64,000 bases of DNA from contig NC_091104.1 in the NCBI RefSeq assembly GCF_024713975.1, forward strand, positions 8,885,580 to 8,949,579, in the 5' to 3' direction. A program made the position numbers and the translations under genes. Below, piece by piece: positions 4,393 through 63,616 of this stretch. Every line of letters starts with the position of its first letter. Position 1 is the first letter of the stretch. The notes beneath the pieces were generated by a model. That model was given only the letters and a program-made list of their open reading frames with translations. It did not search any database and had not been told where the DNA came from. This stretch comes from Paralichthys olivaceus. Its lineage: Eukaryota > Chordata > Actinopteri > Pleuronectiformes > Paralichthyidae.

Positions 4393-4846
4393 TGAACGTG
4401 TAATCGCTATGATAGCCGAGACAGTAATAATCTCCAACATCTTCAGCCTGAACACCACTGATAGTTAAGGTGTAACTAGAACCAGATCTACTGCCACTGA
4501 ATCGAGACGGAGTTCCTGAATAACGAGTTGATGCAGAATATATAAGAAGCTTGGGAGCCTGTCCAGGTTTCTGAAGGTACCAACTGAGATCAGCACCAAT
4601 ATCTGAACTCCCTCTGGCTCCGATGTTCACAGTCCCTCCAAGACTAACAGACTTGACTGTGTCGGTCTGAGTCAGAAAATTGTTGGCAGCAGACTCTGAA
4701 ATCAGAAATGAATGAAAGAGCATCAGAGGAAAGAGTTCCAACAGCCTGTGGAGGAAAATAAAGACAACACATTAACACCATGTTCAAAATCTCTCACCCT
4801 GACTCAGAAAAACCATCATGACACTCAGAGTTACTGTCAACATCAT
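4393..4846 (-). CDS. IGL variable segment VA1 (L3/F-like, family A)
   Basis: Germline light-chain V gene. The leader exon (4798-4846) encodes [16 protein letters not shown], with a GTGAG donor. The 102-bp intron ends at TTTCAG, and the V exon (4393-4695) opens [16 protein letters not shown]. Framework marks include [35 protein letters not shown] and [12 protein letters not shown]1 core is SDIGAD, CDR2 is SAS, CDR3 germline end is LGYHSDYTF. The RSS at 4365-4392 is CACAGTG, a 12-bp spacer and ACAAAAACC (minus strand). The first disulfide cysteine is missing: framework 1 reads [10 protein letters not shown] where a Cys would stand in place of Ala, as in all VA copies. An octamer-like TTTTGCAT lies upstream near 4933-4940. 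No JA lies next to it, but it could join JB1 by inversion. Its upstream flank lacks about 146 bp found in most units. Confidence 0.93.
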
Positions 4847-5527
4847 CCTGATGCAGTTTTCTGTGCGAGTGCGTGAAAACTGCTCGGACTCTGTGTGACT
4901 TTAACTCTGAGGAGCAGCGATGCATACAATTCATGCAAAATACATTTGAGTACACCTGTCTTGATGAAACCCAGAGGAAGAGGTGAGGTTGAGTGAGAAC
5001 ATGTGGACATCACATGAAGGAACTTTCACTTCTGGTTCTGACTTTGAAACGTTCTGGTCTGCACACATGGGAGAAGTTTGTCTTCAAGGCTTTTTACTGT
5101 CTCTTCATGTCTATAAGTAGATGCACACTGCCCTCTGCTGACACTTCACCATCATCAATAACTCCATCATGGTTGAGACTGATTTGGTTTTCTGTCCTTG
5201 TTCAATCTATCATCACCGTGTACATCAGTCATTTCATTCAGCTCTGATATCAGGGAAAGAAGTCAGTAAGTACACGTCATCTAACCTCAGTGACCCCAGA
5301 CCTCTGTTTTATTGAAGTACTCTCCCCCTCTGAGAATACTCTGAGTATCAATAAGACTTGATGTGACAGTGAAGTCTACGAGTATCAGTCTCATTTGATT
5401 GCTCTGTAAAAAACTAAAGTTTAACATGTACAGTTCCAATAAAACTGAGCAAAGTGCGTCTGCTAATGAAGATAAAACCATGTGAATAAAAAGAGCTGCA
5501 AAATGCATCATGAGGCCTAAAGAGACC

Positions 5528-5866
5528 TTAGTTAGATAGACTGTCTATATGAACACAGTCTGGTTGCTATATAATGATATATAAGGTCTATATAGATATA
5601 CATGCAATCTGTTGACTAAATAATTTATTTCTCATATAATCTATGTTTAATATAATAATATATGATTCACGTATGTATATACAGTCTACATAAAGATGTT
5701 GACAGTCTATATGAAATATGTAGAATATATAGACTATCACTATAAATAAATGTCTTTAAAAACTGTTTATACAAAGATAAAGTCCACAAACAATGTATAT
5801 AATGATTATATACAACTTATGGAATGCACCTTGCTCTATAAAGGATTTTTGAATATACTACAAATA
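5528..5866. repeat. AT-rich satellite-like block, unit 1
   Basis: An AT-rich stretch with degenerate recurrences of 'agtctatat', 'tctatatagatatac' and 'ataatatatg', lying between VA1 and VB1. The same block recurs in units 2, 3, 5, 6 and 7. It is deleted in units 4 and 8, and an expanded version lies at the right array edge. Confidence 0.7.
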
Positions 5867-6228
5867 CATCATGAATGTATTGACTGTAATTACTGCACTT
5901 GAGAAAAATCTATGTTGTACATATTTAGAAATATCCCACTGACACTCCTGTGGAAAATCAGAGAATAAGTAAAGCTTGTGGTAAAATGATATTCAAATAT
6001 TACAAACTGGTCATTCATTTGTAGTAATAAATGGATGTAGTCAGTAAAAGCAACTTTTTAAGAGTTTCATCTTAGGTCTGAAAGTGTGTGATTGTGAATG
6101 TTGTGCTTGGTGAGGTTCCTGTCAGTCTCTGTGTTCACTGGTCTGTGTCACACTCTCTTCCTGCTGTAACAGCTCAGTGTCTCTGCCTCTGACTGAGGGA
6201 GGTTTTTGTACGACTGTGATTCACTGTG

Positions 6229-6688
6229 TCAACACTCCACTGCCATGATCAGTGAGACAGTAATAATCTCCAACATCTTCACTCTGAACTCCACTGATGG
6301 TCAAAGAGAAGTCAGTTCTGCTTCCACTGCCACTAAACCGAGCTGGTGCTCCTGAATATCTATTGGTCGCTCTGTATATTAGGAGCTTTGGAGTCTGTCC
6401 AGGTTTCTGCTGGTACCAGGACATACATGGTTGACTATAACACGTTCCAACATTGGAATTGGTTTTACAGGTCAGAGTGACAGTGGATCCTGGAGTAAAG
6501 GTCATGACTGGAGGCTGAGTCACAGTCACCTGGCCGCTGCATCCTGCAGACAAACACAAATCATACAAGTCTCAGCGGAGGTGAAGAGAGAGAACAGGCA
6601 GCGCATCACGTCTGAAATGTTGCTGAGTGACTGAACCTGTGAAGCTGCAGCAGGCCAGCGTCCAGATGAGGAGGGCGATGAGAGTCAT
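6229..6688 (-). CDS. IGL variable segment VB1 (L1/G-like, family B)
   Basis: Germline V gene. The leader exon (6637-6688) encodes [18 protein letters not shown] 93-bp intron follows, then the V exon (6229-6543) opening [12 protein letters not shown]. Both disulfide cysteines are present (TLTCKT and DYYC), with [15 protein letters not shown] and [14 protein letters not shown]1 holds two more cysteines (GTCYSQPC), which could form a loop disulfide. CDR3 germline end is LTDHGSGV, unlike most VB copies and like VA3. The RSS at 6201-6228 has a 12-bp spacer. Upstream on the minus strand lie TATA-like TTTATA (6741-6750) and octamer-like CTTTGCAT (6780-6787). The gene lies 0.6 kb from JB1 in the opposite orientation, so joining requires inversion of about 1.1 kb. 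Confidence 0.95.
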
Positions 6689-6779
6689 GGTGGTTGTGGT
6701 CGACTGACGGGTCTGAGTCCTGCAGAGCTGAAGTCACAGGACTATAAAGCTTCTCGGTTCAGTGGAGGATCAGCTGACG

Positions 6780-6787
6780 ATGCAAAG
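6780..6787 (-). promoter_or_regulatory. Octamer-like element of VB1 promoter
   Basis: CTTTGCAT on the minus strand matches the Ig octamer ATTTGCAT at 7 of 8 positions. It sits about 40 bp upstream of a TTTATA motif and about 92 bp from the VB1 start codon. The same arrangement recurs at each VB gene (for example 15413-15420). It matches the known layout of Ig V promoters bound by Oct factors. Confidence 0.55.
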
Positions 6788-6942
6788 CCTCCTCTCTATG
6801 GAAATGATTCCTCTGCTCTGAGCGGACTGAAGGTGACGTGGGACACAAACTCAGGAGCGTTACTGTTTGGATTTACACTAAATATGAAGAAGCACAATTG
6901 AGGGTCATCAGCATCTGGATTCAAATTGTGTCACTTTCATTG

Positions 6943-6950
6943 ATGCAAAT
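6943..6950 (+). promoter_or_regulatory. Perfect octamer ATGCAAAT between VB1 and JB1
   Basis: This is an exact Ig octamer, in the direction of J and C. It lies between the divergently placed VB and JB and is conserved in other units. It could serve germline J-C transcription, or act as a distal element for VB. In unit 7 (47367-47374) it is changed to ATTCAAAT. Confidence 0.4.
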
Positions 6951-7288
6951 ATGTTTATTTCATTCCCTTGAATTACAGAGTGAGTAGAAGTACAATAGAA
7001 CTTTAAAAGCTTTTTGTTTAAATTGTGTTTTTCAAATTCTGTTGAGGTTTCCTGTTTGTTTTACAGATTTTAAATGATGTTAAACTATTTTGAAGTATTA
7101 ATTTATGACAAAGTTAAATCAACTGTTTGTGTCTCAATGTTTAGAAGTAACAAAAATGATTGAAATTATTTCAAATCATGATGAAATGTCAGGCCACATT
7201 AGCTCAATATAAATATGAAGTGTCAATTGTGTAGTTTTACCATAAAAAGTGAATCTTCAGTGGACAGACTGTTGTTCACGGTGCAGGA

Positions 7289-7365
7289 GGTTTTTGTACG
7301 AGCACCTAATGAGTCTGTATCACTGTGGTACACTTTCGGTGGAGGAACCAAACTCGTCAGTGACT
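7289..7365 (+). CDS. JB1 joining segment with 23-RSS
   Basis: The nonamer GGTTTTTGT is at 7289-7297, followed by a 23-bp spacer and the heptamer CACTGTG at 7321-7327. The J coding part (7328-7365, 38 nt) encodes [12 protein letters not shown] and ends at a GTAAGT donor in a split codon. It has the canonical FGXG motif. It splices to CB1 at 8147 (split Leu codon, giving SDLGVVRP). Confidence 0.93.
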
Positions 7366-8146
7366 GTAAGTACCAGAGATTTTGACTTTGTGCAATAATA
7401 ACTTTGATCTAATAATGAAGAAGAATTTGATCAAGTTCAGAGATTGACTGGCTGATAATTTTGTTGAGTTTTGATCAATCAGAGTTAATCTCATATCCTG
7501 AGAAAAAGAAATGCTGATCAATATTTATTGATTGTAATGAATTTCTGTAGATTATTACATTTATAGAAACATACAAAAACAAATGTTTCATCTATTTTCA
7601 TGTTCACTAATGATTTGAATTCACATGTGTAGAACATTTTAAAATAGAATTTGCTCAAGCTTCAAACTGAATCACAAAGTGTTTCAAATGTTTACTTTGA
7701 AATGATCAAACATATTCTGGCACAAAAATCTGATGTTGAACACAAACAGGATTTTATCAGTAAATGCAGCTCAGCTTTGTGTTCACGGTTCATGTGGTGA
7801 AAAGGAAGTGAAAGAAACAGACGACAACGGTTTGAACTGTTTTCACACCAGTGTTTCAGCTCTGTGACTTCAAACAGAAGAAAATCATCTCAGGGACGAG
7901 TTCTTCACTGTCACACGTTGAGAAACAGACATGAAGACGTCATCAATAATCATCAATAATCATTATCAGTGAACCTTCTCAGCCACATTGACACTTGAAC
8001 CCTGCGGCTGATGGTCTGACACTGAGTGAAGATGTTAAACAGTAGAAGTTCTTCTGTTTTATTTTATAACGTGCAAGAAATCACCTGGACGTCATTTTGC
8101 TTCATCCTCATCCCTTTGTCTTTTCTCCCCCCTCTCTCTCCTCCAG
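7366..8146 (+). other. JB1-CB1 intron
   Basis: A 781-bp intron. It contains the tandem short repeat 'catcaataat' (about 7941-7960) next to a CRE-like 'gacgtcat', and a polypyrimidine tract before the acceptor. It could hold an intronic enhancer, by analogy with mammalian kappa, but nothing here proves that. Confidence 0.5.
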
Positions 8147-8469
8147 TGGGTGTGGTGCGGCCCACCCTGACCGTCCTCCCCCCCTCCAGTGCAGAGCTGC
8201 AGCAGGGCAGTGCCACTCTGGTGTGTCTGGCCAGCGGGGGCTTCCCCTCGGCCTGGAGCCTGGGCTGGAAGGTGGGGGGCAGCAGCAGCTCCTCGGGGGC
8301 GTCTCACAGCCTAGAGGTCCTGGGGAAGGACGGCCACTACAGCTGGAGCAGCACCCTGAGCCTCCCTGTGGAGCAGTGGAGCAAGGCGGCCTCAGTGAGC
8401 TGTGAGGCCAGTCTGAACGGACAGAGCCCTGTCACTCAAACCCTGGACCCTGACCGCTGCTCGGAGTAG
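8147..8469 (+). CDS. CB1 light-chain constant exon (L1/G-like)
   Basis: A single C-domain exon encoding 106 residues after the split codon. It starts [20 protein letters not shown], the typical teleost L1 opening. The intradomain disulfide cysteines are in TLVCLAS and SVSCEAS, with the C-domain tryptophan in LGWKVGG and [11 protein letters not shown] downstream. It ends DPDRCSE, whose Cys would pair with the heavy chain. The acceptor is CTCCAG. A polyadenylation signal AATAAA lies at 8614-8619, with a second near 8672. This copy carries SHSLEV where most have SHSPEV, a variant shared with CB3. Confidence 0.96.
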
Positions 8470-9875: not shown

Positions 9876-10329
9876 TGAACATTCCACTGCCATGAGCACC
9901 AAGACAGTAATAATCTCCAACATCTTCAGCCTGAACACCACTGATAGTTAAGGTGTAACTAGAACCAGATCTACTGCCACTGAATCGAGACGGAGTTCCT
10001 GAATTAAGAGTTGATGTTGTGTATATAAGAAGCTTGGGAGCCTGTCCAGGTTTCTGAAGGTACCAACTGAGATCAGCACCAATATTTGAACTCCCTCTGG
10101 CTCCGATGTTCACAGTCCCTCCAAGTCTAACAGACTTGACTGTGTCGGTCTGAGTCAGAAAATTGTTGGCAGCAGACTCTGAAATCAGAAATGAATGAAA
10201 GAGCATCAGAGGAAAGAGTTCCAACAGCCTGTGGAGGAAAATAAAGACAACACATTAACACCATGTTCAAAATCTCTCACCCTGACTCAGAAAAACCAAC
10301 ATGACACTCAGAGTTACTGTCAACATCAT
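9876..10329 (-). CDS. IGL variable segment VA2 (family A), next to JA1
   Basis: Leader exon 10281-10329 ([16 protein letters not shown]), V exon 9876-10178, RSS 9848-9875 intact. CDR1 is SNIGAD, CDR2 TTS, CDR3 end LGAHGSGMF. Framework 1 reads VRLGG and the Cys23 site is Ala. The upstream flank differs from that of VA1-type copies; an octamer-like ATGCAAAC lies near 10426. VA genes beside JA (VA2, 5, 7, 11) share this flank type. Almost identical to VA7. Confidence 0.93.
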
Positions 10330-11019: not shown

Positions 11020-11096
11020 GGTTTTTGTACAGCGACTTAACAGACTTCTATCACTGTGGTACACGTTCGGCGGAGGCACCAAACTCATCATTCACA
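11020..11096 (+). CDS. JA1 joining segment with intact 23-RSS
   Basis: Nonamer GGTTTTTGT at 11020-11028, 23-bp spacer, heptamer CACTGTG at 11052-11058. J coding 11059-11096 encodes [12 protein letters not shown] with a GTAAGT donor. It splices to CA1 as IIH-S-GPMVRP. VA2 is 0.7 kb away in inverted orientation. Confidence 0.93.
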
Positions 11097-11599: not shown

Positions 11600-11919
11600 G
11601 TGGCCCCATGGTCAGGCCCTCGGTCTCTCTGCTTCCCCCTTCCTCTGAGCAGCTCTCTGGGGGCTCGGCCATGCTGGCCTGCCTGTTGACTGGCTACTCT
11701 CCTCAGGGAGCTGTGGTGAGCTGGGACGTGGACGGCACAGAGGTGACGGAGGGGGTCCTTACCAGCTCGGAGCAGGAGAAGAGCGGACGCTTCAGCAGCA
11801 GCAGCACCCTGACCCTGAGCCGGGAGCACTGGGAGACAGGGGAGCTGTACTCCTGCAGGGTCCTCCACCACGGACACAGTCAGACCCAGTCCCTCACCAG
11901 GAGCCAGTGTCAGGGCTAG
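11600..11919 (+). CDS. CA1 light-chain constant exon (L3/F-like)
   Basis: Constant exon of about 105 residues after a split Ser codon: GPMVRPSVSLLPPSSEQLSG, then MLACLLTGYSPQGAVVSW (disulfide Cys and the core Trp), SSSTLTLSREHW and LYSCRVLHHGH. It ends RSQCQG; the Cys near the end would bind the heavy chain. The acceptor is CCTCCAG. An AATAAA signal lies near 12080. The 'GYSPQGAxVSW' and 'LxRSxCQG' features recall teleost L3/F chains, not sigma or lambda. The isotype label is from memory. Confidence 0.95.
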
Positions 11920-12870: not shown

Positions 12871-13324
12871 TGAACACTCCACTGCCATGATCACCGAAAC
12901 AGTAATAATCTCCAACATCTTCAGCCTGAACACCACTGATAGTTAAGGTGTAACTAGAACCAGATCTACTGCCACTGAATCGAGACGGAGTTCCTGAATT
13001 AAGAGTTGATGCTCTGTATATAAGAAGCTTGGGAGCCTGTCCAGGTTTCTGAAGGTACCAACTGAGATCAGCACCAATATCTGAACTCCCTCTGGCTCCG
13101 ATGTTCACAGTCCCTCCAAGTCTAACAGACTTGACTGTGTCGGTCTGAGTCAGAAATTTGTTGGCAGCAGACTCTGAAATCAGAAATGAATGAAAGAGCA
13201 TCAGAGGAAAGAGTTCCAACAGCCTGTGGAGGAAAATAAAGACAACACATTAACACCATGTTCAAAATCTCTCACCCTGACTCAGAAAAACCATCATGAC
13301 ACTCAGAGTTACTGTCAACATCAT
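12871..13324 (-). CDS. IGL variable segment VA3 (family A)
   Basis: Leader exon 13276-13324, V exon 12871-13173, RSS 12843-12870 intact. It opens [13 protein letters not shown]1 is SDIGAD, CDR2 RAS, CDR3 end FGDHGSGVF. The Cys23 site is Ala. The CDR3 end is shared with VA8 and, at DNA level, with VB1. It lies between CA1 and VB2 and could join JA1 on its left or JB2 on its right. Confidence 0.93.
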
Positions 13325-14852: not shown

Positions 14853-15321
14853 TCAACACACTCGCTCCATTTATTACATGGCCACTGAAACAGTAGTAAA
14901 CTGCTGCATCTTCACTCTGAACTCCACTGATGGTCAAAGAGAAGTCAGAGCTGCTTCCACCGCCACTAAATCGAGCTGGTGCTCCTGAATGTCTATTGGT
15001 CGCTCTGTATATTAGGAGCTTTGGAGTCTGTCCAGGTTTCTGCTGGTACCAGGACATACATGGTTGACTATAACACGTTCCAACATTGGAATCGGTTTTA
15101 CAGGTCAGAGTGACAGTGGATCCTGGAGTAATGGTCACGACTGGAGGCTGAGTCACAGTCACCTGGCCGCTGCATCCTGCAGACAAACACAAATCATACA
15201 AGTCTCAGCGGAGGTGAAGAGAGAGAACAGGCAGCGCATCACGTCTGAAATGTTGCTGAGTGACTGAACCTGTGAAGCTGCAGCAGGCCAGCGTCCAGAT
15301 GAGGAGGGCGATGAGAGTCAT
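14853..15321 (-). CDS. IGL variable segment VB2 (family B)
   Basis: Leader exon 15270-15321, V exon 14853-15176, RSS 14825-14852. CDR1 has the Cys pair (GTCYSQPC). Framework 3 reads SEDAAVYYC and CDR3 ends [11 protein letters not shown]. With VB7 it is one of only two VB copies that keep this framework-3 end; other VB copies read SEDVGDYYC as VA genes do. It also carries GGGSS in place of GSGSS. Confidence 0.95.
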
Positions 15322-15921: not shown

Positions 15922-15998
15922 GGTTTTTGTACGAGCACCTAATGAGTCTGTATCACTGTGGTGGACTTTCGGTGGAGGAACCAAACTCGTCAGTGACT
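15922..15998 (+). CDS. JB2 joining segment with 23-RSS
   Basis: Nonamer 15922-15930, 23-bp spacer, heptamer 15954-15960, J 15961-15998 encoding [12 protein letters not shown]. The first residue is Trp where JB1 has Tyr. Confidence 0.93.
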
Positions 15999-16779: not shown

Positions 16780-17102
16780 TGGGTGTGGTGCGGCCCACCC
16801 TGACCGTGCTCCCCCCCTCCAGTGCAGAGCTGCAGCAGGGCAGTGCCACTCTGGTGTGTCTGGCCAGCGGGGGCTTCCCCTCGGCCTGGAGCCTGGGCTG
16901 GAAGGTGGGGGGCAGCAGCAGCTCCTCGGGGGCGTCTCACAGCCCAGAGGTCCTGGGGAAGGACGGCCACTACAGCTGGAGCAGCACCCTGAGCCTCCCT
17001 GTGGAGCAGTGGAGCAAGGCGGCCTCAGTGAGCTGTGAGGCCAGTCTGAACGGACAGAGCCCTGTCACTCAAACCCTGGACCCTGACCGCTGCTCGGAGT
17101 AG
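16780..17102 (+). CDS. CB2 light-chain constant exon
   Basis: Open, with both disulfide cysteines, and ends DPDRCSE. It carries SHSPEV. A silent difference (ACCGTGCTC) is shared with CB6 only. AATAAA follows near 17247. Confidence 0.96.
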
Positions 17103-17888: not shown

Positions 17889-18342
17889 TGAACGTGTTAC
17901 CGCTATGATAGCCGAGACAGTAATAATCTCCAACATCTTCAGCCTGAACACCACTGATAGTTAAGGTGTAACTAGAACCAGAGCTACTGCCACTGAATCG
18001 AGACGGAGTTCCTGAATAACGAGTTGATGCTTTGTATATAAGAAGCTTGGGAGCCTGTCCAGGTTTCTGAAGGTACCAACTGAGATCATCCTCAATATCT
18101 GAACTCCCTCTGGCTCCGATGTTCACAGTCCCTCCAAGACTAACAGACTTGACTGTGTCGGTCTGAGTCAGAAATTTGTTGGCAGCAGACTCTGAAATCA
18201 GAAATGAATGAAAGAGCATCAGAGGAAAGAGTTCCAACAGCCTGTGGAGGAAAATAAAGACAACACATTAACACCATGTTCAAAATCTCTCACCCTGACT
18301 CAGAAAAACCATCATGACACTCAGAGTTACTGTCAACATCAT
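17889..18342 (-). CDS. IGL variable segment VA4 (family A)
   Basis: Leader exon 18294-18342, V exon 17889-18191, RSS 17861-17888. CDR1 is SDIEDD, CDR2 KAS, CDR3 end LGYHSGNTF. Framework 3 has SSSGSS where others have SRSGSS, shared with VA9 and VA12. The Cys23 site is Ala. No JA is adjacent; the nearest J segments are JB2 and JB3. Confidence 0.93.
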
Positions 18343-19870: not shown

Positions 19871-20342
19871 TCAACACACTCTGTCCATTTATTACATGGC
19901 CACTGTGACAGTAATAATCTCCAACATCTTCACTCTGAACTCCACTGATGGTCAAAGAGAAGTCAGAGCTGCTTCCACTGCCACTAAACCGAGCTGGTGC
20001 TCCTGAATGTCTATTGGTCGCTCTGTATATTAGGAGCTTTGGAGTCTGTCCAGGTTTCTGCTGGTACCAGTACATACATGGTTCACTATTACTACACGTT
20101 CCAACACTGGGGTTGGTTTTACAGGTCAGAGTGACAGTGGATCCTGGAGTAATGGTCACGACTGGAGGCTGAGTCACAGTCACCTGGCCGCTGCATCCTG
20201 CAGACAAACACAAATCATACAAGTCTCAGCGGAGGTGAAGAGAGAGAACAGGCAGCGCATCACGTCTGAAATGTTGCTGAGTGACTGAACCTGTGAAGCT
20301 GCAGCAGGCCAGCGTCCAGATGAGGAGGGCGATGAGAGTCAT
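19871..20342 (-). CDS. IGL variable segment VB3 (family B) with VA-type RSS spacer
   Basis: Leader exon 20291-20342, V exon 19871-20197. CDR1 is one residue longer (GTCSNSEPC) and still carries the Cys pair; it reads CMYWYQQ. CDR3 ends [11 protein letters not shown]. The RSS (19843-19870) has the spacer acgactctaaat, identical to VA genes. All other VB copies have acgactgtgatt. This suggests a conversion tract from a VA gene. Confidence 0.95.
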
Positions 20343-20942: not shown

Positions 20943-21019
20943 GGTTTTTGTACGAGCACCTAATGAGTCTGTATCACTGTGGCTCACTTTCGGTGGAGGA
21001 ACCAAACTCGTCAGTGACT
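20943..21019 (+). CDS. JB3 joining segment with 23-RSS
   Basis: Nonamer 20943-20951, heptamer 20975-20981, J 20982-21019 encoding [12 protein letters not shown] (Leu first). GTAAGT donor. Confidence 0.93.
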
Positions 21020-23523: not shown

Positions 23524-23974
23524 TGAACGTTCCACCATGATCACCAAGACAGTAATAATCTCCAACATCTTCAGCCTGAACACCACTGATAGTTAAGGTG
23601 TAACTAGAACCAGATCTACTGCCACTGAATCGAGACGGAGTTCCTGAATTACGAGTTGATGTTGTGTATATAAGAAGCTTGGGAGCCTGTCCAGGTTTCT
23701 GAAGGTACCAACTGAGATCATCATCAATATCTGAACTCCCTCTGGCTCCGATGTTCACAGTCCCTCCAAGACTAACAGACTTGACTGTGTCGGTCTGAGT
23801 CAGAAAATTGTTGGCAGCAGACTCTGAAATCAGAAATGAATGAAAGAGCATCAGAGGAAAGAGTTCCAACAGCCTGTGGAGGAAAATAAAGACAACACAT
23901 TAACACCATGTTCAAAATCTCTCACCCTGACTCAGAAAAACCATCATGACACTCAGAGTTACTGTCAACATCAT
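23524..23974 (-). CDS. IGL variable segment VA5 (family A), shortest CDR3
   Basis: Leader exon 23926-23974, V exon 23524-23823, RSS 23496-23523. CDR1 is SDIDDD, CDR2 TTS with TRNS, CDR3 end LGDHGGTF, one codon shorter than other VA genes. The Cys23 site is Ala. Its neighbour JA2 lacks a nonamer, so local joining is probably impaired. Confidence 0.93.
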
Positions 23975-24657: not shown

Positions 24658-24702
24658 CACTGTGGTACACGTTCGGCGGAGGCACCAAACTCATCATTCA
24701 CA
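24658..24702 (+). CDS. JA2 joining segment with defective RSS
   Basis: The heptamer CACTGTG is at 24658-24664 and J coding at 24665-24702 ([18 protein letters not shown] donor), but no GGTTTTTGT stands 23 bp upstream. Compared with JA1, 39 bp are missing between 'tgtgcttt' and 'ttaacagac'. The loss takes the nonamer and the first part of the spacer. RAG-mediated joining should be weak or absent, although the coding part is intact. Confidence 0.88.
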
Positions 24703-25215: not shown

Positions 25216-25535
25216 GTGGCCCCATGGTCAGGCCCTCGGTCTCTCTGCTTCCCCCTTCCTCTGAGCAGCTCTCTGGGGGCTCGGCCATGCTGGCCTGCCT
25301 GTTGACTGGCTACTCTCCTCAGGGAGCTGTGGTGAGCTGGGACGTGGACGGCACAGAGGTGACGGAGGGGGTCCTTACCAGCTCGGAGCAGGAGAAGAGC
25401 GGACGCTTCAGCAGCAGCAGCACCCTGACCCTGAGCCGGGAGCACTGGGAGACAGGGGAGCTGTACTCCTGCAGGGTCCTCCACCACGGACACAGTCAGA
25501 CCCAGTCCCTCACCAGGAGCCAGTGTCAGGGCTAG
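25216..25535 (+). CDS. CA2 light-chain constant exon
   Basis: Encodes the same protein as CA1 as far as I can read it, ending RSQCQG. Because JA2 lacks a nonamer, this exon may be reached only by unusual joining or splicing. AATAAA near 25697. Confidence 0.93.
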
Positions 25536-26486: not shown

Positions 26487-26940
26487 TGAACGTGTAATCG
26501 CTATGAGCACCAAGACAGTAATAATCTCCAACATCTTCAGCCTGAACACCACTGATAGTTAAGGTGTAACTAGAACCAGATCTACTGCCACTGAATCGAG
26601 ACGGAGTTCCTGAATTAAGAGTTGATGCTCTGTATATAAGAAGCTTGGGAGCCTGTCCAGGTTTCTGAAGGTACCAACTGAGATCAGCACCAATATCTGA
26701 ACTCCCTCTGGCTCCGATGTTCACAGTCCCTCCAAGTCTAACAGACTTGACTGTGTCGGTCTGAGTCAGAAATTTGTTGGCAGCAGTCTCTGAAATCAGA
26801 AATGAATGAAAGAGCATCAGAGGAAAGAGTTCCAACAGCCTGTGGAGGAAAATAAAGACAACACATTAACACCATGTTCAAAATCTCTCACCCTGACTCA
26901 GAAAAACCATCATGACACTCAGAGTTACTGTCAACATCAT
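26487..26940 (-). CDS. IGL variable segment VA6 (family A)
   Basis: Leader exon 26892-26940, V exon 26487-26789, RSS 26459-26486. It opens [10 protein letters not shown], shared with VA8 only. CDR1 is SDIGAD, CDR2 RAS, CDR3 end LGAHSDYTF. The Cys23 site is Ala. The AT-rich block upstream is deleted in this unit (junction near 27750). Confidence 0.93.
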
Positions 26941-28107: not shown

Positions 28108-28576
28108 TCAACACACTCTGTCCATTTATTACATGGCCACTAAAACAGTAATAATCTCCAACATCTTCACTCTGAACTCCATTGATGGTCAAAGAGAAGT
28201 CAGAGCTGCTTCCACTGCCACTAAATCGAGCTGGTGCTCCTGAATGTCTATTGGTCGCTCTGTATATTAGGAGCTTTGGAGTCTGTCCAGGTTTCTGCTG
28301 GTACCAGGACATACATGGTTGACTATAACACGTTCCAACACTGGGGTTGGTTTTACAGGTCAGAGTGACAGTGGATCCTGGAGTAAAGGTCACGACTGGA
28401 GGCTGAGTCACAGTCACCTGGCCGCTGCATCCTGCAGACAAACACAAATCATACAAGTCTCAGCGGAGGTGAAGAGAGAGAACAGGCAGCGCATCACGTC
28501 TGAAATGTTGCTGAGTGACTGAACCTGTGAAGCTGCAGCAGGCCAGCGTCCAGATGAGGAGGGCGATGAGAGTCAT
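28108..28576 (-). CDS. IGL variable segment VB4 (family B)
   Basis: Leader exon 28525-28576, V exon 28108-28431, RSS 28080-28107. CDR1 reads [12 protein letters not shown] (Cys pair). Framework 3 has [15 protein letters not shown]; the Asn is unique to this copy. CDR3 ends [11 protein letters not shown]. Confidence 0.95.
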
Positions 28577-29176: not shown

Positions 29177-29253
29177 GGTTTTTGTACGAGCACCTAATGA
29201 GTCTGTATCACTGTGGTACACTTTCGGTGGAGGAACCAAACTCGTCAGTGACT
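29177..29253 (+). CDS. JB4 joining segment with 23-RSS
   Basis: Nonamer 29177-29185, heptamer 29209-29215, J 29216-29253 encoding [12 protein letters not shown], as JB1. Confidence 0.93.
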
Positions 29254-31763: not shown

Positions 31764-32217
31764 TGAACATTCCACTGCCATGAGCACCAAGACAGTAATA
31801 ATCTCCAACATCTTCAGCCTGAACACCACTGATAGTTAAGGTGTAACTAGAACCAGATCTACTGCCACTGAATCGAGACGGAGTTCCTGAATTAAGAGTT
31901 GATGTTGTGTATATAAGAAGCTTGGGAGCCTGTCCAGGTTTCTGAAGGTACCAACTGAGATCATCACCAATATTTGAACTCCCTCTGGCTCCGATGTTCA
32001 CAGTCCCTCCAAGTCTAACAGACTTGACTGTGTCGGTCTGAGTCAGAAAATTGTTGGCAGCAGACTCTGAAATCAGAAATGAATGAAAGAGCATCAGAGG
32101 AAAGAGTTCCAACAGCCTGTGGAGGAAAATAAAGACAACACATTAACACCATGTTCAAAATCTCTCACCCTGACTCAGAAAAACCAACATGACACTCAGA
32201 GTTACTGTCAACATCAT
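31764..32217 (-). CDS. IGL variable segment VA7 (family A)
   Basis: Leader exon 32169-32217 ([16 protein letters not shown] as VA2), V exon 31764-32066, RSS 31736-31763. CDR1 is SNIGDD, CDR2 TTS, CDR3 end LGAHGSGMF. It differs from VA2 at one CDR1 residue by eye. The Cys23 site is Ala. Its neighbour JA3 lacks the nonamer. Confidence 0.93.
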
Positions 32218-32900: not shown

Positions 32901-32945
32901 CACTGTGGTACACGTTCGGCGGAGGCACCAAACTCATCATTCACA
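32901..32945 (+). CDS. JA3 joining segment with defective RSS
   Basis: Heptamer 32901-32907, J 32908-32945 ([12 protein letters not shown]). It shows the same 39-bp loss of nonamer and 5' spacer as JA2, with the same endpoints, so the two derive from one event. The coding part and GTAAGT donor are intact. Confidence 0.88.
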
Positions 32946-34729: not shown

Positions 34730-35183
34730 TGAACACTCCACTGCCATGATCACCGAAACAGTAATAATCTCCAACATCTTCAGCCTGAACACCACTGATA
34801 GTTAAGGTGTAACTAGAACCAGATCTACTGCCACTGAATCGAGACGGAGTTCCTGAATTAAGAGTTGATGCTCTGTATATAAGAAGCTTGGGAGCCTGTC
34901 CAGGTTTCTGAAGGTACCAACTGAGATCAGCACCAATATCTGAACTCCCTCTGGCTCCGATGTTCACAGTCCCTCCAAGTCTAACAGACTTGACTGTGTC
35001 GGTCTGAGTCAGAAATTTGTTGGCAGCAGTCTCTGAAATCAGAAATGAATGAAAGAGCATCAGAGGAAAGAGTTCCAACAGCCTGTGGAGGAAAATAAAG
35101 ACAACACATTAACACCATGTTCAAAATCTCTCACCCTGACTCAGAAAAACCATCATGACACTCAGAGTTACTGTCAACATCAT
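34730..35183 (-). CDS. IGL variable segment VA8 (family A)
   Basis: Leader exon 35135-35183, V exon 34730-35032, RSS 34702-34729. It opens [10 protein letters not shown] like VA6, but its CDR3 end FGDHGSGVF is that of VA3, so it looks like a mosaic of the two. CDR1 is SDIGAD, CDR2 RAS. The Cys23 site is Ala. Confidence 0.93.
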
Positions 35184-36711: not shown

Positions 36712-37180
36712 TCAACACACTCTGTCCATTTATTACATGGCCACTGTGACAGTAATAATCTCCAACATCTTCACTCTGAACTCCACTGATGGTCAAAGAG
36801 AAGTCAGAGCTGCTTCCACTGCCACTAAATCGAGCTGGTGCTCCTGAATATCTATTGGTCGCTCTGTATATTAGGAGCTTTGGAGTCTGTCCAGGTTTCT
36901 GCTGGTACCAGGACATACATTGTTCACCACTACACGTTGCAACATTGGAATTGGTTTTACAGGTCAGAGTGACAGTGGATCCTGGAGTAATGGTCACGAC
37001 TGGAGGCTGAGTCACAGTCACCTGGCCGCTGCATCCTGCAGACAAACACAAATCATACAAGTCTCAGCGGAGGTGAAGAGAGAGAACAGGCAGCGCATCA
37101 CGTCTGAAATGTTGCTGAGTGACTGAACCTGTGAAGCTGCAGCAGGCCAGCGTCCAGATGAGGAGGGCGATGAGAGTCAT
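36712..37180 (-). CDS. IGL variable segment VB5 (family B)
   Basis: Leader exon 37129-37180, V exon 36712-37035, RSS 36684-36711. CDR1 reads [12 protein letters not shown] (Cys pair). CDR3 ends [11 protein letters not shown]. It differs from VB6 only near the start of framework 1 (PPVVTIT against PSVVTFT). Confidence 0.95.
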
Positions 37181-37780: not shown

Positions 37781-37857
37781 GGTTTTTGTACGAGCACCTA
37801 ATGAGTCTGTATCACTGTGGTGGACTTCCGGTGGAGGAACCAAACTCGTCAGTGACT
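37781..37857 (+). CDS. JB5 joining segment with Phe-to-Ser change in FGXG
   Basis: The RSS is intact (nonamer 37781-37789, heptamer 37813-37819). J 37820-37857 reads [12 protein letters not shown] because TTC has become TCC. The Phe of the FGXG motif packs in the V-domain core and is nearly invariant in J segments, so chains made with this J may fold poorly. Confidence 0.9.
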
Positions 37858-39768: not shown

Positions 39769-40222
39769 TGAACGTGTAATCGCTATGTTCACCGAGACAG
39801 TAATAATCTCCAACATCTTCAGCCTGAACACCACTGATAGTTAAGGTGTAACTAGAACCAGAGCTACTGCCACTGAATCGAGACGGAGTTCCTGAATTAA
39901 GAGTTGATGCTTTGTATATAAGAAGCTTGGGAGCCTGTCCAGGTTTCTGAAGGTACCAACTGAGATCATCCTCAATATCTGAACTCCCTCTGGCTCCGAT
40001 GTTCACAGTCCCTCCAAGACTAACAGACTTGACTGTGTCGGTCTGAGTCAGAAATTTGTTGGCAGCAGACTCTGAAATCAGAAATGAATGAAAGAGCATC
40101 AGAGGAAAGAGTTCCAACAGCCTGTGGAGGAAAATAAAGACAACACATTAACACCATGTTCAAAATCTCTCACCCTGACTCAGAAAAACCATCATGACAC
40201 TCAGAGTTACTGTCAACATCAT
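39769..40222 (-). CDS. IGL variable segment VA9 (family A)
   Basis: Leader exon 40174-40222, V exon 39769-40071, RSS 39741-39768. CDR1 is SDIEDD, CDR2 KAS, CDR3 end LGEHSDYTF. It has SSSGSS as in VA4 and VA12. The Cys23 site is Ala. No JA is adjacent. Confidence 0.93.
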
Positions 40223-41750: not shown

Positions 41751-42219
41751 TCAACACACTCTGTCCATTTATTACATGGCCACTGTGACAGTAATAATCT
41801 CCAACATCTTCACTCTGAACTCCACTGATGGTCAAAGAGAAGTCAGAGCTGCTTCCACTGCCACTAAATCGAGCTGGTGCTCCTGAATATCTATTGGTCG
41901 CTCTGTATATTAGGAGCTTTGGAGTCTGTCCAGGTTTCTGCTGGTACCAGGACATACATTGTTCACCACTACACGTTGCAACATTGGAATTGGTTTTACA
42001 GGTCAGAGTGACAGTGGATCCTGGAGTAAAGGTCACGACTGAAGGCTGAGTCACAGTCACCTGGCCGCTGCATCCTGCAGACAAACACAAATCATACAAG
42101 TCTCAGCGGAGGTGAAGAGAGAGAACAGGCAGCGCATCACGTCTGAAATGTTGCTGAGTGACTGAACCTGTGAAGCTGCAGCAGGCCAGCGTCCAGATGA
42201 GGAGGGCGATGAGAGTCAT
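41751..42219 (-). CDS. IGL variable segment VB6 (family B)
   Basis: Leader exon 42168-42219, V exon 41751-42074, RSS 41723-41750. CDR1 reads [12 protein letters not shown]. Framework 1 has QPSVVTFT, the Ser being unique. CDR3 ends [11 protein letters not shown]. Near-twin of VB5. Confidence 0.95.
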
Positions 42220-42819: not shown

Positions 42820-42896
42820 GGTTTTTGTACGAGCACCTAATGAGTCTGTATCACTGTGGTGGACTTTCGGTGGAGGAACCAAACTCGTCAGTGACT
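42820..42896 (+). CDS. JB6 joining segment with 23-RSS
   Basis: Nonamer 42820-42828, heptamer 42852-42858, J 42859-42896 encoding [12 protein letters not shown]. It keeps the Phe that JB5 has lost. Confidence 0.93.
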
Positions 42897-44807: not shown

Positions 44808-45261
44808 TGAACACTCCACTGCCATGATTGCCGAGACAGTAATAATCTCCAACATCTTCAGCCTGAACACCACTGATAGTTAAGGTGTAACTAGAACCAG
44901 ATCTACTGCCACTGAATCGAGATGGAGTTCCTGAATTAAGAGTTGATGCTCTGTATATAAGAAGCTTGGGAGCCTGTCCAGGTTTCTGAAGGTACCAACT
45001 GAGATCAGCACCAATATTTGAACTCCCTCTGGCTCCGATGTTCACAGTCCCTCCAAGACTAACAGACTTGACTGTGTCGGTCTGAGTCAGAAAATTGTTG
45101 GCAGCAGACTCTGAAATCAGAAATGAATGAAAGAGCATCAGAGGAAAGAGTTCCAACAGCCTGTGGAGGAAAATAAAGACAACACATTAACACCATGTTC
45201 AAAATCTCTCACCCTGACTCAGAAAAACCATCATGACACTCAGAGTTACTGTCAACATCAT
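44808..45261 (-). CDS. IGL variable segment VA10 (family A) with altered heptamer
   Basis: Leader exon 45213-45261, V exon 44808-45110. CDR1 is SNIGAD, CDR2 RAS, CDR3 end LGNHGSGVF. The Cys23 site is Ala. The RSS (44780-44807) has heptamer CACAATG instead of CACAGTG, a change likely to lower joining efficiency; nonamer and 12-bp spacer are normal. The upstream flank shares the 146-bp deletion with VA1. Confidence 0.92.
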
Positions 45262-46643: not shown

Positions 46644-47112
46644 TCAACACACTCGCTCCATTTATTACATGGCCACTGAAACAGTAGTAAACTGCTGCAT
46701 CTTCACTCTGAACTCCACTGATGGTCAAAGAGAAGTCAGAGCTGCTTCCACTGCCACTAAATCGAGCTGGTGCTCCTGAATGTCTATTGGTCGCTCTGTA
46801 TATTAGGAGCTTTGGAGTCTGTCCAGGTTTCTGCTGGTACCAGGACATACATGGTTGACTATAACACGTTCCAACATTGGAATCGGTTTTACAGGTCAGA
46901 GTGACAGTGGATCCTGGAGTAAAGGTCACGACTGGAGGCTGAGTCACAGTCACCTGGCCGCTGCATCCTGCAGACAAACACAAATCATACAAGTCTCAGC
47001 GGAGGTGAAGAGAGAGAACAGGCAGCGCATCACGTCTGAAATGTTGCTGAGTGACTGAACCTGTGAAGCTGCAGCAGGCCAGCGTCCAGATGAGGAGGGC
47101 GATGAGAGTCAT
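46644..47112 (-). CDS. IGL variable segment VB7 (family B)
   Basis: Leader exon 47061-47112, V exon 46644-46967, RSS 46616-46643. CDR1 reads [12 protein letters not shown]. Framework 3 is [12 protein letters not shown]3 end [11 protein letters not shown], as in VB2. The octamer between this gene and JB7 is mutated (47367-47374). Confidence 0.95.
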
Positions 47113-47712: not shown

Positions 47713-47789
47713 GGTTTTTGTACGAGCACCTAATGAGTCTGTATCACTGTGGTGGACTTTCGGTGGAGGAACCAAACTCGTCAGTGACT
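47713..47789 (+). CDS. JB7 joining segment with 23-RSS
   Basis: Nonamer 47713-47721, heptamer 47745-47751, J 47752-47789 encoding [12 protein letters not shown]. Confidence 0.93.
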
Positions 47790-50300: not shown

Positions 50301-50754
50301 TGAACGTGTTACCGCTATGAGCACCAAGACAGTAATAATCTCCAACATCTTCAGCCTGAACACCACTGATAGTTAAGGTGTAACTAGAACCAGATCTACT
50401 GCCACTGAATCGAGACGGAGTTCCTGAATTACGAGTTGATGTTGTGTATATAAGAAGCTTGGGAGCCTGTCCAGGTTTCTGAAGGTACCAACTGAGATCA
50501 TCATCAATATCTGAACTCCCTCTGGCTCCAATGTTCACAGTCCCTCCAAGTCTAACAGACTTGACTGTGTCGGTCTGAGTCAGAAATTTGTTGGCAGCAG
50601 ACTCTGAAATCAGAAATGAATGAAAGCGCATCAGAGGAAAGAGTTCCAACAGCCTGTGGAGGAAAATAAAGACAACACATTAACACCATGTTCAAAATCT
50701 CTCACCCTGACTCAGAAAAACCATCATGACACTCAGAGTTACTGTCAACATCAT
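50301..50754 (-). CDS. IGL variable segment VA11 (family A), next to JA4
   Basis: Leader exon 50706-50754, V exon 50301-50603, RSS 50273-50300. CDR1 is SDIDDD and CDR2 TTS with TRNS (as VA5), CDR3 end LGAHSGNTF. The Cys23 site is Ala. It faces JA4, which has an intact RSS. Confidence 0.93.
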
Positions 50755-51444: not shown

Positions 51445-51521
51445 GGTTTTTGTACAGCGACTTAACAGACTTCTATCACTGTGGTACACGTTCGGCGGAG
51501 GCACCAAACTCATCATTCACA
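51445..51521 (+). CDS. JA4 joining segment with intact 23-RSS
   Basis: Nonamer 51445-51453, 23-bp spacer, heptamer 51477-51483, J 51484-51521 encoding [12 protein letters not shown]. With JA1 it is one of only two JA segments here with a complete RSS. Confidence 0.93.
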
Positions 51522-52355: not shown

Positions 52356-53278
52356 AGGGGCCGACTGAAGCCCAGGACAGGAGCTCTGTCTGGGGGGAGG
52401 GGGCAGGAGAAGCAGACCTGCAGCTCTGATCAAATATGAGTTTGGATGTTTGTAGAGGTTTGTTCTGTGTGGAGCTCAACTTTAATAACTGTCACGCTCA
52501 CAAATGAGGTTTTGCTAATAAAGTTTGTATTGATGCATAACACCAAAGTGTTTGGTCTTTAATCTTTTTACATGGTTTTAAATCTTCACTTGATGCTCCT
52601 CCTCTGGGCAGATATCTTGGAATTTAAATCGGTTGGTAAAAATAAAAGTTACTACTTCTTTTAATTGGTAAGAACAATGATGACATATTAGTGATTGTTT
52701 TATCAAGATTGGAAACATGCTTCCTTTTCAGCGAAGCAAAACCAATGATAGAAATAACTAACGGCCAATATTTGTCTGTCAATGTGACTGTTAATGTAAT
52801 CATTAGATCTTATTAAATCTCATTTTAAAATGATTCCTCTAAAACTCAACTCAACTAATCATCATTGAATAAAACTGTGTGTCACAACAAATCGGTGTCT
52901 TTTTTTTTGCTTTCAACATTTTACACATTGCAAAACCTCCATTCTTGATCATTCCAGTGTCAGAAAGTGCAGGAGATGGTTTCAGTTGTGTCACTTCTCT
53001 GCACGTCAGTGGAGATACAACATATCAAGCATTAAAACATTGATTTCAAAATCTAGAACAAGAAACTGGAGCTTTTGGTTTGGACTGATGTAAGGTGCCA
53101 GGTTATGTCAGTAGCTTCAGAGAGGGAACTGAATGAGGAGAATACAAAACGAGAAGTGTGTGTGGGCTTTGTTTCAGTTAAGATTCTTCTGCTTGAAGAC
53201 TCGTGTGTTGTGTTCACTGGACCAGTTATTCTCTGTGCAGCTGCAGTGGACCAGTTTCACTTCAGTCAAACTGAGGGA
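52356..53278. other. CA4 3' region and spacer to VA12
   Basis: 3' UTR and AT-rich spacer like 11920-12842. No gene seen. Confidence 0.6.
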
Positions 53279-53306
53279 GGTTTTTGTACGACTCTAAATC
53301 ACTGTG

Positions 53307-53760
53307 TGAACGTGTTACCGCGATGAAGGCCGAGACAGTAATAATCTCCAACATCTTCAGCCTGAACACCACTGATAGTTAAGGTGTAACTAGAACCAGA
53401 GCTACTGCCACTGAATCGAGACGGAGTTCCTGAATTAAGAGTTGATGCTTTGTATATAAGAAGCTTGGGAGCCTGTCCAGGTTTCTGAAGGTACCAACTG
53501 AGATCATCCTCAATATCTGAACTCCCTCTGGCTCCGATGGTCACAGTCCCTCCAAGACTAACAGACTTGACTGTGTCGGTCTGAGTCAGAAATTTGTTGG
53601 CAGCAGACTCTGAAATCAGAAATGAATGAAAGAGCATCAGAGGAAAGAGTTCCAACAGCCTGTGGAGGAAAATAAAGACAACACATTAACACCATGTTCA
53701 AAATCTCTCACCCTGACTCAGAAAAACCATCATGACACTCAGAGTTACTGTCAACATCAT
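53307..53760 (-). CDS. IGL variable segment VA12 (family A)
   Basis: Leader exon 53712-53760, V exon 53307-53609, RSS 53279-53306. CDR1 is SDIEDD, CDR2 KAS, CDR3 end LGLHRGNTF. Framework 1 reads TVTIGARG where others have TVNIGARG, and the Cys23 site is still Ala. The AT-rich block upstream is deleted, as in unit 4. Confidence 0.93.
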
Positions 53761-54927: not shown

Positions 54928-55387
54928 TCAACACTCCACTGCCATGATCAGTGAGACAGTAGTAATCTCCAACATCTTCACTCTGAACTCCACTGATGGT
55001 CAAAGAGAAGTCAGTTCTGCTTCCACTGCCACTAAACCGAGCTGGTGCTCCTGAATATCTATTGGTCGCTCTGTATATTAGGAGCTTTGGAGTCTGTCCA
55101 GGTTTCTGCTGGTACCAGTACATACATTGTTCACCACCCCACGTTGCAACATTGGAATTAGTTTTACAGGTCAGAGTGACAGTGGATCCTGGAGTAAAGG
55201 TCACGACTGGAGGCTGAGTCACAGTCACCTGGCCGCTGCATCCTGCAGACAAACACAAATCATACAAGTCTCAGCGGAGGTGAAGAGAAAGAACAGGCAG
55301 CGCATCACGTCTGAAATGTTGCTGAGTGACTGAACCTGTGAAGCTGCAGCAGGCCAGCGTCCAGATGAGGAGGGCGATGAGAGTCAT
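54928..55387 (-). CDS. IGL variable segment VB8 (family B), one CDR1 Cys lost
   Basis: Leader exon 55336-55387, V exon 54928-55242, RSS 54900-54927. CDR1 reads [12 protein letters not shown], so the first of the two CDR1 cysteines is Trp and the second is left unpaired. CDR3 ends LTDHGSGV, as VB1 and like the VA3/VA8 end. It has SGSRTDFS as VB1. Confidence 0.95.
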
Positions 55388-55987
55388 GGTGGTTGTGGTC
55401 GACTGACGGGTCTGAGTCCTGCAGAGCTGAAGTCACAGGACTATAAAGCTTCTCGGTTCAGTGGAGGATCAGCTGACGATGCAAAGCCTCCTCTCTATGG
55501 AAATGATTCCTCTGCTCTGAGCGGACTGAAGGTGACGTGGGACACAAACTCAGGAGCGTTACTGTTTGGATTTACACTAAATATGAAGAAGCACAATTGA
55601 GGGTCGTCAGCATCTGGATTCAAATTGTGTCACTTTCATTGATGCAAATATGTTTATTTTATTCCCTTGAATTACAGAGTGAGTAGAAGTACAATAGAAC
55701 TTTAAAAGCTTTTTGTTTAAATTGTGTTTTTCAAATTCTGTTGAGGTTTCCTGTTTGTTTTACAGATTTTAAATGATGTTAAACTGTTTTGAAGTATTAA
55801 TTTATGACAAAGTTTAATCAACTGTTTGTGTCTCAATGTTTAAAAGTAACAAAAATGATTGAAATCATTTCAAATCATGATGAAATGTCAAGCCACATTA
55901 GCTCAATATAAATATGAAGTGTCAATTGTGTAGTTTTACCATTAAAAGTGAATCTTCAGTGGACAGACTGTTGTTCACGGTGCAGGA

Positions 55988-56064
55988 GGTTTTTGTACGA
56001 GCACCTAATGAGTCTGTATCACTGTGGCTCACTTTCGGTGGAGGAACCAAACTCGTCAGTGACT
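55988..56064 (+). CDS. JB8 joining segment with 23-RSS
   Basis: Nonamer 55988-55996, heptamer 56020-56026, J 56027-56064 encoding [12 protein letters not shown], as JB3. Confidence 0.93.
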
Positions 56065-56845
56065 GTAAGTACCAGAGATTTTGACTTTGTGCATTAATAA
56101 CTTTGATCTAATAATGAAGAAGAATTTGATCAAGTTCAGAGATTGACTGGCTGATAATTTTGTTGAGTTTTGATCAATCAAAGTTAATCTCATATCCTGA
56201 GAAAAAGAAATGCTGATCAATATTTATTGATTGTAATGAGTTTCTGTAGATTATTACATTTATAGAAACATACAAAAACAAATGCTTAATCTATTTTCAT
56301 GTTCACTAATGATTTGAATTCACGTGTGTAGAACATTTTAAAATAGAATTTGCTCAAGCTTCAAACTGAATCACAAAGTGTTTCAAATGTTTACTTTGAA
56401 ATGATCAAACATATTCTGGCACAAAAATCTGATGTTGAACACAAACAGGATTTTATCAGTAAATGCAGCTCAGCTTTGTGTTCACGGTTCATGTGGTGAA
56501 AAGGAAGTGAAAGAAACAGACGACAACGGTTTGAACTGTTTTCACACCAGTGTTTCAGCTCTGTGACTTTAAACAGAAGAAAATCATCTCAGGGACGAGT
56601 TCTTCACTGTCACACGTTGAGAAACAGACATGAAGACGTCATCAATAATCATCAATAATCATTATCAGTGAACCTTCTCAGCCACATTGACACTTGAACC
56701 CTGCGGCTGATGGTCTGACACTGAGTGAAGATGTTAAACAGTAGAAGTTCTTCTGCTTTATTTTATAACGTGCAAGAAATCACCTGGACGTCATTTTGCT
56801 TCATCCTCATCCCTTTGTCTTTTCTCCCCCCTCTCTCTCCTCCAG

Positions 56846-57168
56846 TGGGTGTGGTGCGGCCCACCCTGACCGTCCTCCCCCCCTCCAGTGCAGAGCTGCA
56901 GCAGGGCAGTGCCACTCTGGTGTGTCTGGCCAGCGGGGGCTTCCCCTCGGCCTGGAGCCTGGGCTGGAAGGTGGGGGGCAGCAGCAGCTCCTCTGGGGCG
57001 TCTCACAGCCCAGAGGTCCTGGGGAAGGACGGCCACTACAGCTGGAGCAGCACCCTGAGCCTCCCTGTGGAGCAGTGGAGCAAGGCGGCCTCAGTGAGCT
57101 GTGAGGCCAGTCTGAACGGACAGAGCCCTGTCACTCAAACCCTGGACCCTGACCGCTGCTCGGAGTAG
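56846..57168 (+). CDS. CB8 light-chain constant exon
   Basis: Open constant exon with SHSPEV, sharing variants with CB5. AATAAA near 57313. Confidence 0.96.
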
Positions 57169-57947
57169 AGAGACGACAGGATGGAGTCATTGTGCTCTAC
57201 TGTGGGTCTGTTTGATTTACATGTGTTCTACTGCAGCTCTGCACGTCTTCATATCTTTGCTTCAACATATTATCACAGTTCAATGTTGTATTGTGGTACT
57301 TTTTAAACAAGAATAAATATTTCATGTCATATGTCATTTGTTTTTCACATTTCTATTCTTACTTTACTGAAATAAAATAAATCATCACTAACATCTGCTT
57401 CTGTTTTGTTTCTTCTGCAAGATATTAATGTAAATCTGTGTTTTACTTCCACTTATACAATAATTTCTCTTGTGTGGATCTGCATGAAAACCATGTTCCT
57501 CACTTCTGAGATGAACAATTCACTTCATTCAAATGATGAAAATCACATATTTCATTAGTTTGTAGGACTTTCCTCATAATTCATATTATTGTCAACAAAA
57601 GTGTCACAAGTAAAAACTTCAAATGAAACCTGAGAAGTTAGAGGGAGATGACACATTTAGCATAAGAGTTATTTAGATATTTAGTTCCATCCATGTTCTG
57701 ATGTGTGAGTGCTTAATGGTAAAACACCTTTGAATGTGTGATTATAATATTCATCATATCACTATTTAATAAAGTCAGAGTTGCTTCAGAGATGGAACTG
57801 AATGAGGAGAATACAAAATGAGAAGTGTGTGTGGGCTTTGTTTCAGTTAAGATTCTTCTGCTTGAAGACTCGTGTGTTGTGTTCACTGGACCAGTTATTC
57901 TCTGTGCAGCTGCAGTGGACCAGTTTCACTTCAGTCAAACTGAGGGA
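57169..57947. other. CB8 3' region and short-unit deletion junction
   Basis: Junction 'aataaagt|cagagttgcttc' near 57774. kappaB-like site near 57567. Confidence 0.7.
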
Positions 57948-57975
57948 GGTTTTTGTACGACTCTAAATCACTGTG

Positions 57976-58429
57976 TGAACACTCCACCTCCATGATCACC
58001 AAGACAGTAATAATCTCCAACATCTGCAGCCTGAACACCACTGATAGTTAAGGTGTAACTAGAACCAGATCTACTGCCACTGAATCGAGACGGAGTTCCT
58101 GAATAACGAGTTGATGCATCATATATAAGAAGCTTGGGAGCCTGTCCAGGTTTCTGAAGGTACCAACTGAGATCAGCACCAATATCTGAACTCCCTCTGG
58201 CTCCGATGTTCACAGTCCCTCCAAGACTAACAGACTTGACTGTGTCGGTCTGAGTCAGAAAATTGTTGGCAGCAGACTCTGAAATCAGAAATGAATGAAA
58301 GAGCATCAGAGGAAAGAGTTCCAACAGCCTGTGGAGGAAAATAAAGACAACACATTAACACCATGTTCAAAATCTCTCACCCTGACTCAGAAAAACCATC
58401 ATGACACTCAGAGTTACTGTCAACATCAT
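57976..58429 (-). CDS. IGL variable segment VA13 (family A), last V of the array
   Basis: Leader exon 58381-58429, V exon 57976-58278, RSS 57948-57975. CDR1 is SDIGAD, CDR2 DAS with TRYS, CDR3 end LGDHGGGVF. Framework 3 has [10 protein letters not shown] instead of [10 protein letters not shown]. The Cys23 site is Ala. There is no J or C to its right before reep6; it could join J segments to its left by inverting the J-C block. Confidence 0.92.

Positions 58430-59836: not shown

Positions 59837-63616
<3,780 letters not shown>

Follow-up and report, generated by a model that had tools for sequence, protein, structure and literature searches.

The 64-kb window analysed here (the whole stretch of DNA, C12:8885580-8949579) is a fish immunoglobulin light-chain locus, and all 13 variable (V) genes of its family A (VA) encode alanine in place of the first conserved cysteine (1st-CYS) of the V domain, at IMGT position 23. 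A search of the genome (588 Mb in 25 contigs) yielded a 14th VA copy outside the window, on the same chromosome (C12:8860935, plus strand), which also reads GARG at this site. The bridge between Cys23 and Cys104 counts as a hallmark of the antibody V domain. We regard it as probable that the VA genes are the counterpart of torafugu IGLV1, that is, functional germline V genes making a predicted disulfide-free, kappa-like light-chain V (VL) domain, under gene conversion and selection on the complementarity-determining regions (CDRs). Antibody domains may thus work in nature without a supposedly essential disulfide.

Alanine 23 and the structure of the VA genes

Framework 1 of each of the 13 window copies reads TV(N/T)IGARGSS, framework 2 WYLQ and framework 3 DYYC, and a search of the window placed the GARGSS motif in these 13 genes, all on the minus strand. 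Their V exons are the following:

VA1, 4393-4695, minus strand; Ala23 codon 4616-4618; leader exon 4798-4846; recombination signal sequence (RSS) 4365-4392
VA2, 9876-10178, minus strand; Ala23 10099-10101; precedes a J3-C3 unit
VA3, 12871-13173, minus strand; Ala23 13094-13096
VA4, 17889-18191, minus strand; Ala23 18112-18114
VA5, 23524-23823, minus strand; Ala23 23744-23746; CDR3 one codon shorter; precedes J3-C3
VA6, 26487-26789, minus strand; Ala23 26710-26712
VA7, 31764-32066, minus strand; Ala23 31987-31989; precedes J3-C3
VA8, 34730-35032, minus strand; Ala23 34953-34955
VA9, 39769-40071, minus strand; Ala23 39992-39994
VA10, 44808-45110, minus strand; Ala23 45031-45033; heptamer CACAATG
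VA11, 50301-50603, minus strand; Ala23 50524-50526; precedes J3-C3
VA12, 53307-53609, minus strand; Ala23 53530-53532
VA13, 57976-58278, minus strand; Ala23 58199-58201; leader exon 58381-58429; in the window, no following J-C was found

An ungapped alignment (L4-T5-Q6 ... V19-N20-I21-G22-A23) puts Ala at position 23, and a HMMER alignment of one VA copy to the kappa-type domains of three PDB chains gave the same placement. The codon is GCC in all 14 genomic copies, which also retain Trp41 and Cys104. This confirms the earlier note, according to which every VA gene of the window lacks Cys23, with Ala (GCC) instead, and keeps the second cysteine (DYYC) and the core tryptophan (WYLQ). No substitute cysteine occurs near position 23 in any of the 13 window copies; a hidden neighbouring Cys, a doubt raised together with that claim, was therefore rejected. 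N-glycosylation at Asn20 was also rejected (N-I-G is not a sequon). As an explanation, an alignment or assembly artefact appears practically negligible: tandem arrays are liable to misassembly, but the alignment that gives Ala at 23 needs no gap, the copies share the codon though their flanks differ, and the same replacement has been published for torafugu (PMC5241823).

In all 14 copies the leader contains (M/L)VFLSQ and a first exon (L-PART1) of 49 nt is followed by a 102-nt intron; open frame, splice sites and nonamer ACAAAAACC are preserved in each of them. The 12-spacer RSS (CACAGTG / ACAAAAACC) is exact in 13 of the 14. Its heptamer CACAGTG is thus found in 13/14 copies genome-wide (12/13 in the window), the copy at 45102 having CACAATG. 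Intact leaders, splice sites, frames and nonamers had been reported for all 13 window copies, and this holds, with the one variant heptamer. In that copy (44808-45110, minus strand), CACAATG may reduce rearrangement. One of the window copies, submitted to Pfam, matched the V-set domain with 45.6 bits (curated cut-off, 26). The 1st-CYS being absent from all 14, the genes fall outside the IMGT definition of a functional V gene (frame, splice sites, RSS, 1st-CYS, Trp and 2nd-CYS) and under IMGT rules would be classed as open reading frame (ORF) genes, like the complete torafugu V1 genes (PMC5241823).

The predicted VA-J1-C1 chain contains four cysteines, namely Cys104, the pair of the constant (C) domain and the terminal Cys, which leaves Cys104 partnerless inside the V domain. 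This free Cys104 could bond elsewhere (to the heavy-chain V domain, VH, to a partner chain or to a small thiol), in which case the antibody would be differently linked or redox-sensitive; we consider this quite improbable. Cys104 is normally buried, neither VA nor the joining (J) segments hold a further Cys as partner, and the VA copies are too alike for their common retention of Cys104 to reveal constraint. The conservation of the residue in every copy nevertheless fits such a bond, as does the fact that torafugu V1 ORF genes are footnoted for the 1st-CYS only (PMC5241823). A cysteine at the J-C junction was rejected as partner of Cys104: the junction codons, derived by hand, encode Leu (J1-C1) and Ser (J3-C3).

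Likeness to torafugu IGLV1

The window is composed of eight [VA VB J1 C1] units, four [VA J3 C3] units and one lone VA at its end without J-C. Throughout it the V genes lie on the minus strand and J and C on the plus strand, so joining must be by inversion. VB adjoins the same J1-C1 units as VA, in opposite orientation and with a 12-spacer RSS, and is absent from the J3-C3 units; its first exon measures 52 nt (9/9 genomic copies), its intron 93 nt, and Cys23 is kept in 9/9. C1 and C3 may be called L1- and L3-type, names taken from the locus layout and not from sequence comparison with named C genes.

In torafugu, IGLV1 (the teleost L1 V) has been described as having the "1st-CYS replaced by Ala"; it was found in expressed sequence tags (ESTs) and guessed to be "torafugu-specific" (PMC5241823). 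A light-chain V gene without Cys23 is, as a kind, already known. The earlier note had left it open whether other fish share the replacement, had judged it not to be ordinary decay and had named gene conversion among its readings: conversion, and not decay, is what we find, while Ala23 itself was already in print, with ESTs (PMC5241823). This analysis adds a likely distribution beyond torafugu, a history with a single probable loss, evidence of gene conversion, the CDR-focused diversity and a parallel family resembling T-cell receptor (TCR) genes in the same genome. Within the literature searched, PMC5241823, in the parts available, was the only report of a fish light chain that has lost Cys23, and further reports may well exist; 'cys' does not occur in the main text of the cod paper (PMC11223323).

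IGLV1 shares with VA the Ala in place of the 1st-CYS with Trp41 and 2nd-CYS kept, short CDR1 and CDR2, the 12-spacer RSS CACAGTG-ACAAAAACC, an orientation mostly opposite to J-C and a position next to C genes of both the L1 and the L3 type (PMC5241823). In both loci the Cys23-less family is mixed with a long-CDR1 family that bears the cysteine, and VB resembles torafugu IGLV3, with which it has the 52-nt first exon in common (PMC5241823). The J1 RSS spacer and its torafugu J1 counterpart agree in 19 of their 23 bases, a value reached by 0 of 200,000 shuffles, in comparison with 9/23 for torafugu J2a (PMC5241823). The promoter reads TTTTGCAT-27-GTTAAA in nine of the 14 VA copies and GTTTGCAT with other spacing in the other five. 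Agreement with torafugu IGLV1 (ATTTGCAT, 27 nt, TTTAAA) is partial, the 27-nt octamer-TATA gap recurring in the nine copies; octamer and TATA are less canonical in VA than in IGLV1 (PMC5241823). These two diverged promoter types lie over near-identical gene bodies, the second being shared by the VA genes of all four J3-C3 units in the window and by the C12:8860935 copy. Other measures differ: L-PART1 and intron are 40 and 137 nt in IGLV1 (49 and 102 nt in VA), the IGLV3 intron is 84-85 nt (93 nt in VB), and several IGLV1 copies have no leader in the torafugu assembly, whereas all 14 VA copies are complete (PMC5241823). A motif search across paper texts, made for identity with the V1 sequence, gave no match. 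Since the locus resembles torafugu L1/L3 in layout and signals, though its introns differ in length, the "torafugu-specific" guess looks wrong, and the trait is likely wider than torafugu, provided that VA and IGLV1 belong to one family.

Gene conversion and diversity of the CDRs

The 13 window copies are 96-98% identical to one reference copy over 300 nt. Among all 14, the p-distance is 0.0014 in the intron, 0.0054 in the leader and 0.0265 in the V exon up to Cys104, whereas the aligned 200-base flanks differ by 0.16 and 0.38 upstream and 0.14 and 0.45 downstream (the outer stretches are gap-rich and may be partly unrelated). Furthermore, 26 of 55 informative site pairs failed the four-gamete test. 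Near-identical bodies within long-diverged flanks, together with these failures, indicate that the VA family is homogenised by gene conversion, as had been suggested. With this identity and concerted evolution, the 13 copies count as about one evolutionary event and not thirteen. Intact frames in 13 or 14 copies are likewise weak evidence by themselves, because conversion keeps copies alike, and frame integrity was set aside as proof of selection.

The variation that persists is focused on the CDRs. Segregating sites amount to 10/54 in the CDRs, 8/213 in the frameworks (p = 0.0006) and 2/151 in leader plus intron (p = 0.00003 against the CDRs), and variable amino-acid codons to 7/18 in the Kabat CDRs and 5/71 in the frameworks (p = 0.002). 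For CDR1 and CDR2 the ratio of nonsynonymous to synonymous change (dN/dS) is 4.16 (codon bootstrap 2.29-9.43; 179 of 200 replicates usable), calculated from nine codons, with CDR3 left out and with copies that are not independent. Plain low neutral divergence as the cause of the contrast between intron and CDRs was dropped, the aligned flanks being very diverged. Such CDR-focused variation is expected of working V genes and not of dead ones. Ordinary pseudogene decay, already dismissed in the earlier note, was rejected on the 14 open copies with their intact leaders, splice sites and nonamers. The whole-V dN/dS across VA copies (2.08; 0.73-7.03), like that of the frameworks, decides nothing. 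The suggestion that these genes are maintained as such is favoured over dead genes by the nonsynonymous CDR diversity, the intact frames carrying little weight by themselves.

The loss of Cys23 might instead be a fixed defect that duplication and gene conversion have spread; VA chains would then be poorly made or retained in the endoplasmic reticulum, with conversion preserving the family and VB supplying the working light chains. The strong homogenisation of the gene bodies and the incompatible site pairs agree with this, and the framework dN/dS is compatible with neutrality. We consider it unlikely, because conversion leaves the CDR excess over frameworks and introns unexplained, a CDR1+2 dN/dS of about 4 speaks against it, and in torafugu the family persists and appears in ESTs (PMC5241823).

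Some observations weigh against the reading of VA as functional genes orthologous to IGLV1. The framework dN/dS (1.27; 0.26-7.48) is uninformative, and the non-independence of the 14 copies caused by conversion weakens the site counts too. The 50 bases before the start codon segregate at 7/50 sites, nearly the CDR level, because the diverged promoter types extend that far. The VA promoter octamer and TATA deviate from consensus. The torafugu EST support is thin, with six ESTs concordant with the L1/L3 loci (PMC5241823), and the proposed orthology draws on layout and signals, torafugu V1 having been compared by description.

Precedents for V domains without the bridge exist. Salmonid TRAV1, a family of TCR alpha V genes reported as expressed in salmon, has Tyr instead of Cys23, with related Cys23-less genes in stickleback, lumpfish, goby, flounder and cod; like VA it is a germline family without Cys23, but it belongs to the T-cell receptor alpha, has Tyr and not Ala, and represents a separate loss (PMC8559430). 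Single-chain variable fragments (scFvs) without any cysteines are soluble, and one VH Cys is naturally missing from the levan antibody ABPC48 (PMC5734687). These domains fold or bind without the intradomain bridge, as proposed for VA; the scFvs are engineered, however, and ABPC48 is one individual antibody whose VH carries the loss, whereas VA is a germline family (PMC5734687). In the light of the scFvs, ABPC48 and fish TRAV1, VA was taken as a putative working bridge-free VL domain.

The VA genes of this species are most likely expressed after inversional joining to either J1-C1 or J3-C3; their product would then be a kappa-like VL domain lacking the Cys23-Cys104 bridge. This domain would fold through an ordinary hydrophobic core, with Trp41, the small Ala23 and a buried, reduced Cys104, and may be further held by VH pairing and by the bond between the light-chain C domain and the heavy chain. 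Gene conversion would keep the gene bodies alike, and selection would keep the CDRs diverse. A germline family common to two or more fish species would allow V folding without the bridge to be tested on a natural example, and VA-type frameworks could serve antibodies for reducing environments. VgenExtractor required a Cys at positions 15-28, and its successor VgeneFinder does not (PMC6388353); VA-like families can therefore be missed by gene finders that demand the cysteine.

Related V genes and the rest of the locus

A second locus, on contig C20, holds kappa-like V genes with Cys23 in 13/13 of those recognised by pattern, and five C exons with 64-65% identity to C1. A FastTree tree built from 40 V sequences groups VA with the C20 genes and leaves VB outside, four V genes of contig C5 being read as outgroup; the tree was read by splits only, as scripted rerooting left the outgroup unisolated, and the VA node is without support because the copies are so alike. 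Given that VB and the C20 relatives both keep Cys23, the cysteine was most simply lost once, probably on the VA stem.

Seven of the 15 TRAV-like genes (labelled by eye) recognised in a 20-kb stretch of contig C16 (443001-463000; L023, L024) have Tyr at position 23 (STVTLSY) and keep Cys104; apparently they are of the TRAV1-like type reported in salmonids (PMC8559430). A Cys close to the end of the leader (GVSCDEL) is a further feature of these Tyr23 genes. It is conceivable, though rather doubtful, that percomorph fish keep, as a selected trait, light chains with a buried free thiol in a disulfide-free V domain, alongside a TCR-alpha-like Tyr23 family in the same genome in which the Cys was lost separately. 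The immunoglobulin-fold disulfide would then be optional in natural antigen receptors, and its loss may benefit flexibility, cold folding or redox-tuned stability.

Two other exons were assigned by eye: window positions 2155-2607 (minus strand) presumably correspond to a glutamate-transporter (SLC1A) exon and 59635-59919 (plus strand) to what we take to be a REEP5/6 exon, both without a Pfam match. The J segments and C exons are:

J1 with 23-spacer RSS, 7289-7365, plus strand
J1 with RSS, 15922-15998, plus strand
J1 with RSS, 20943-21019, plus strand
J1 with RSS, 29177-29253, plus strand
J1 with RSS, 37781-37857, plus strand; FGGG reads SGGG
J1 with RSS, 42820-42896, plus strand
J1 with RSS, 47713-47789, plus strand
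J1 with RSS, 55988-56064, plus strand
J3 with RSS, 11020-11096, plus strand
J3 with RSS, 51445-51521, plus strand
J3 without recognisable nonamer at 23-bp spacing (sequence inspected directly), 24665-24702, plus strand
J3, RSS pattern not found (pattern search only), 32908-32945, plus strand
C1 exon, first of eight, 8147-8469, plus strand; others start at 16780, 21795, 30035, 38639, 43678, 48571 and 56846; three Cys each
C3 exon, first of four, 11600-11919, plus strand; others start at 25216, 33459 and 52036; three Cys each

Two of the four J3 thus show no recognisable nonamer at 23-bp spacing, and rearrangement of two C3 units may suffer accordingly. The conserved J-Phe is lost in one of the eight J1 (37781-37857, plus strand), which reads TSGGGT and not TFGGGT.

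The VB V coding sequences of the window, each with Cys23 present, are:

VB1, 6230-6535, minus strand
VB2, 14854-15168, minus strand
VB3, 19872-20189, minus strand
VB4, 28109-28423, minus strand
VB5, 36713-37027, minus strand
VB6, 41752-42066, minus strand
VB7, 46645-46959, minus strand
VB8, 54929-55234, minus strand; one CDR1 Cys replaced by Trp

Two extra cysteines (C-x4/5-C) are present in CDR1 in eight of the nine genomic VB copies, which suggests a second bridge within CDR1; the Trp replacement in VB8 leaves an odd Cys.

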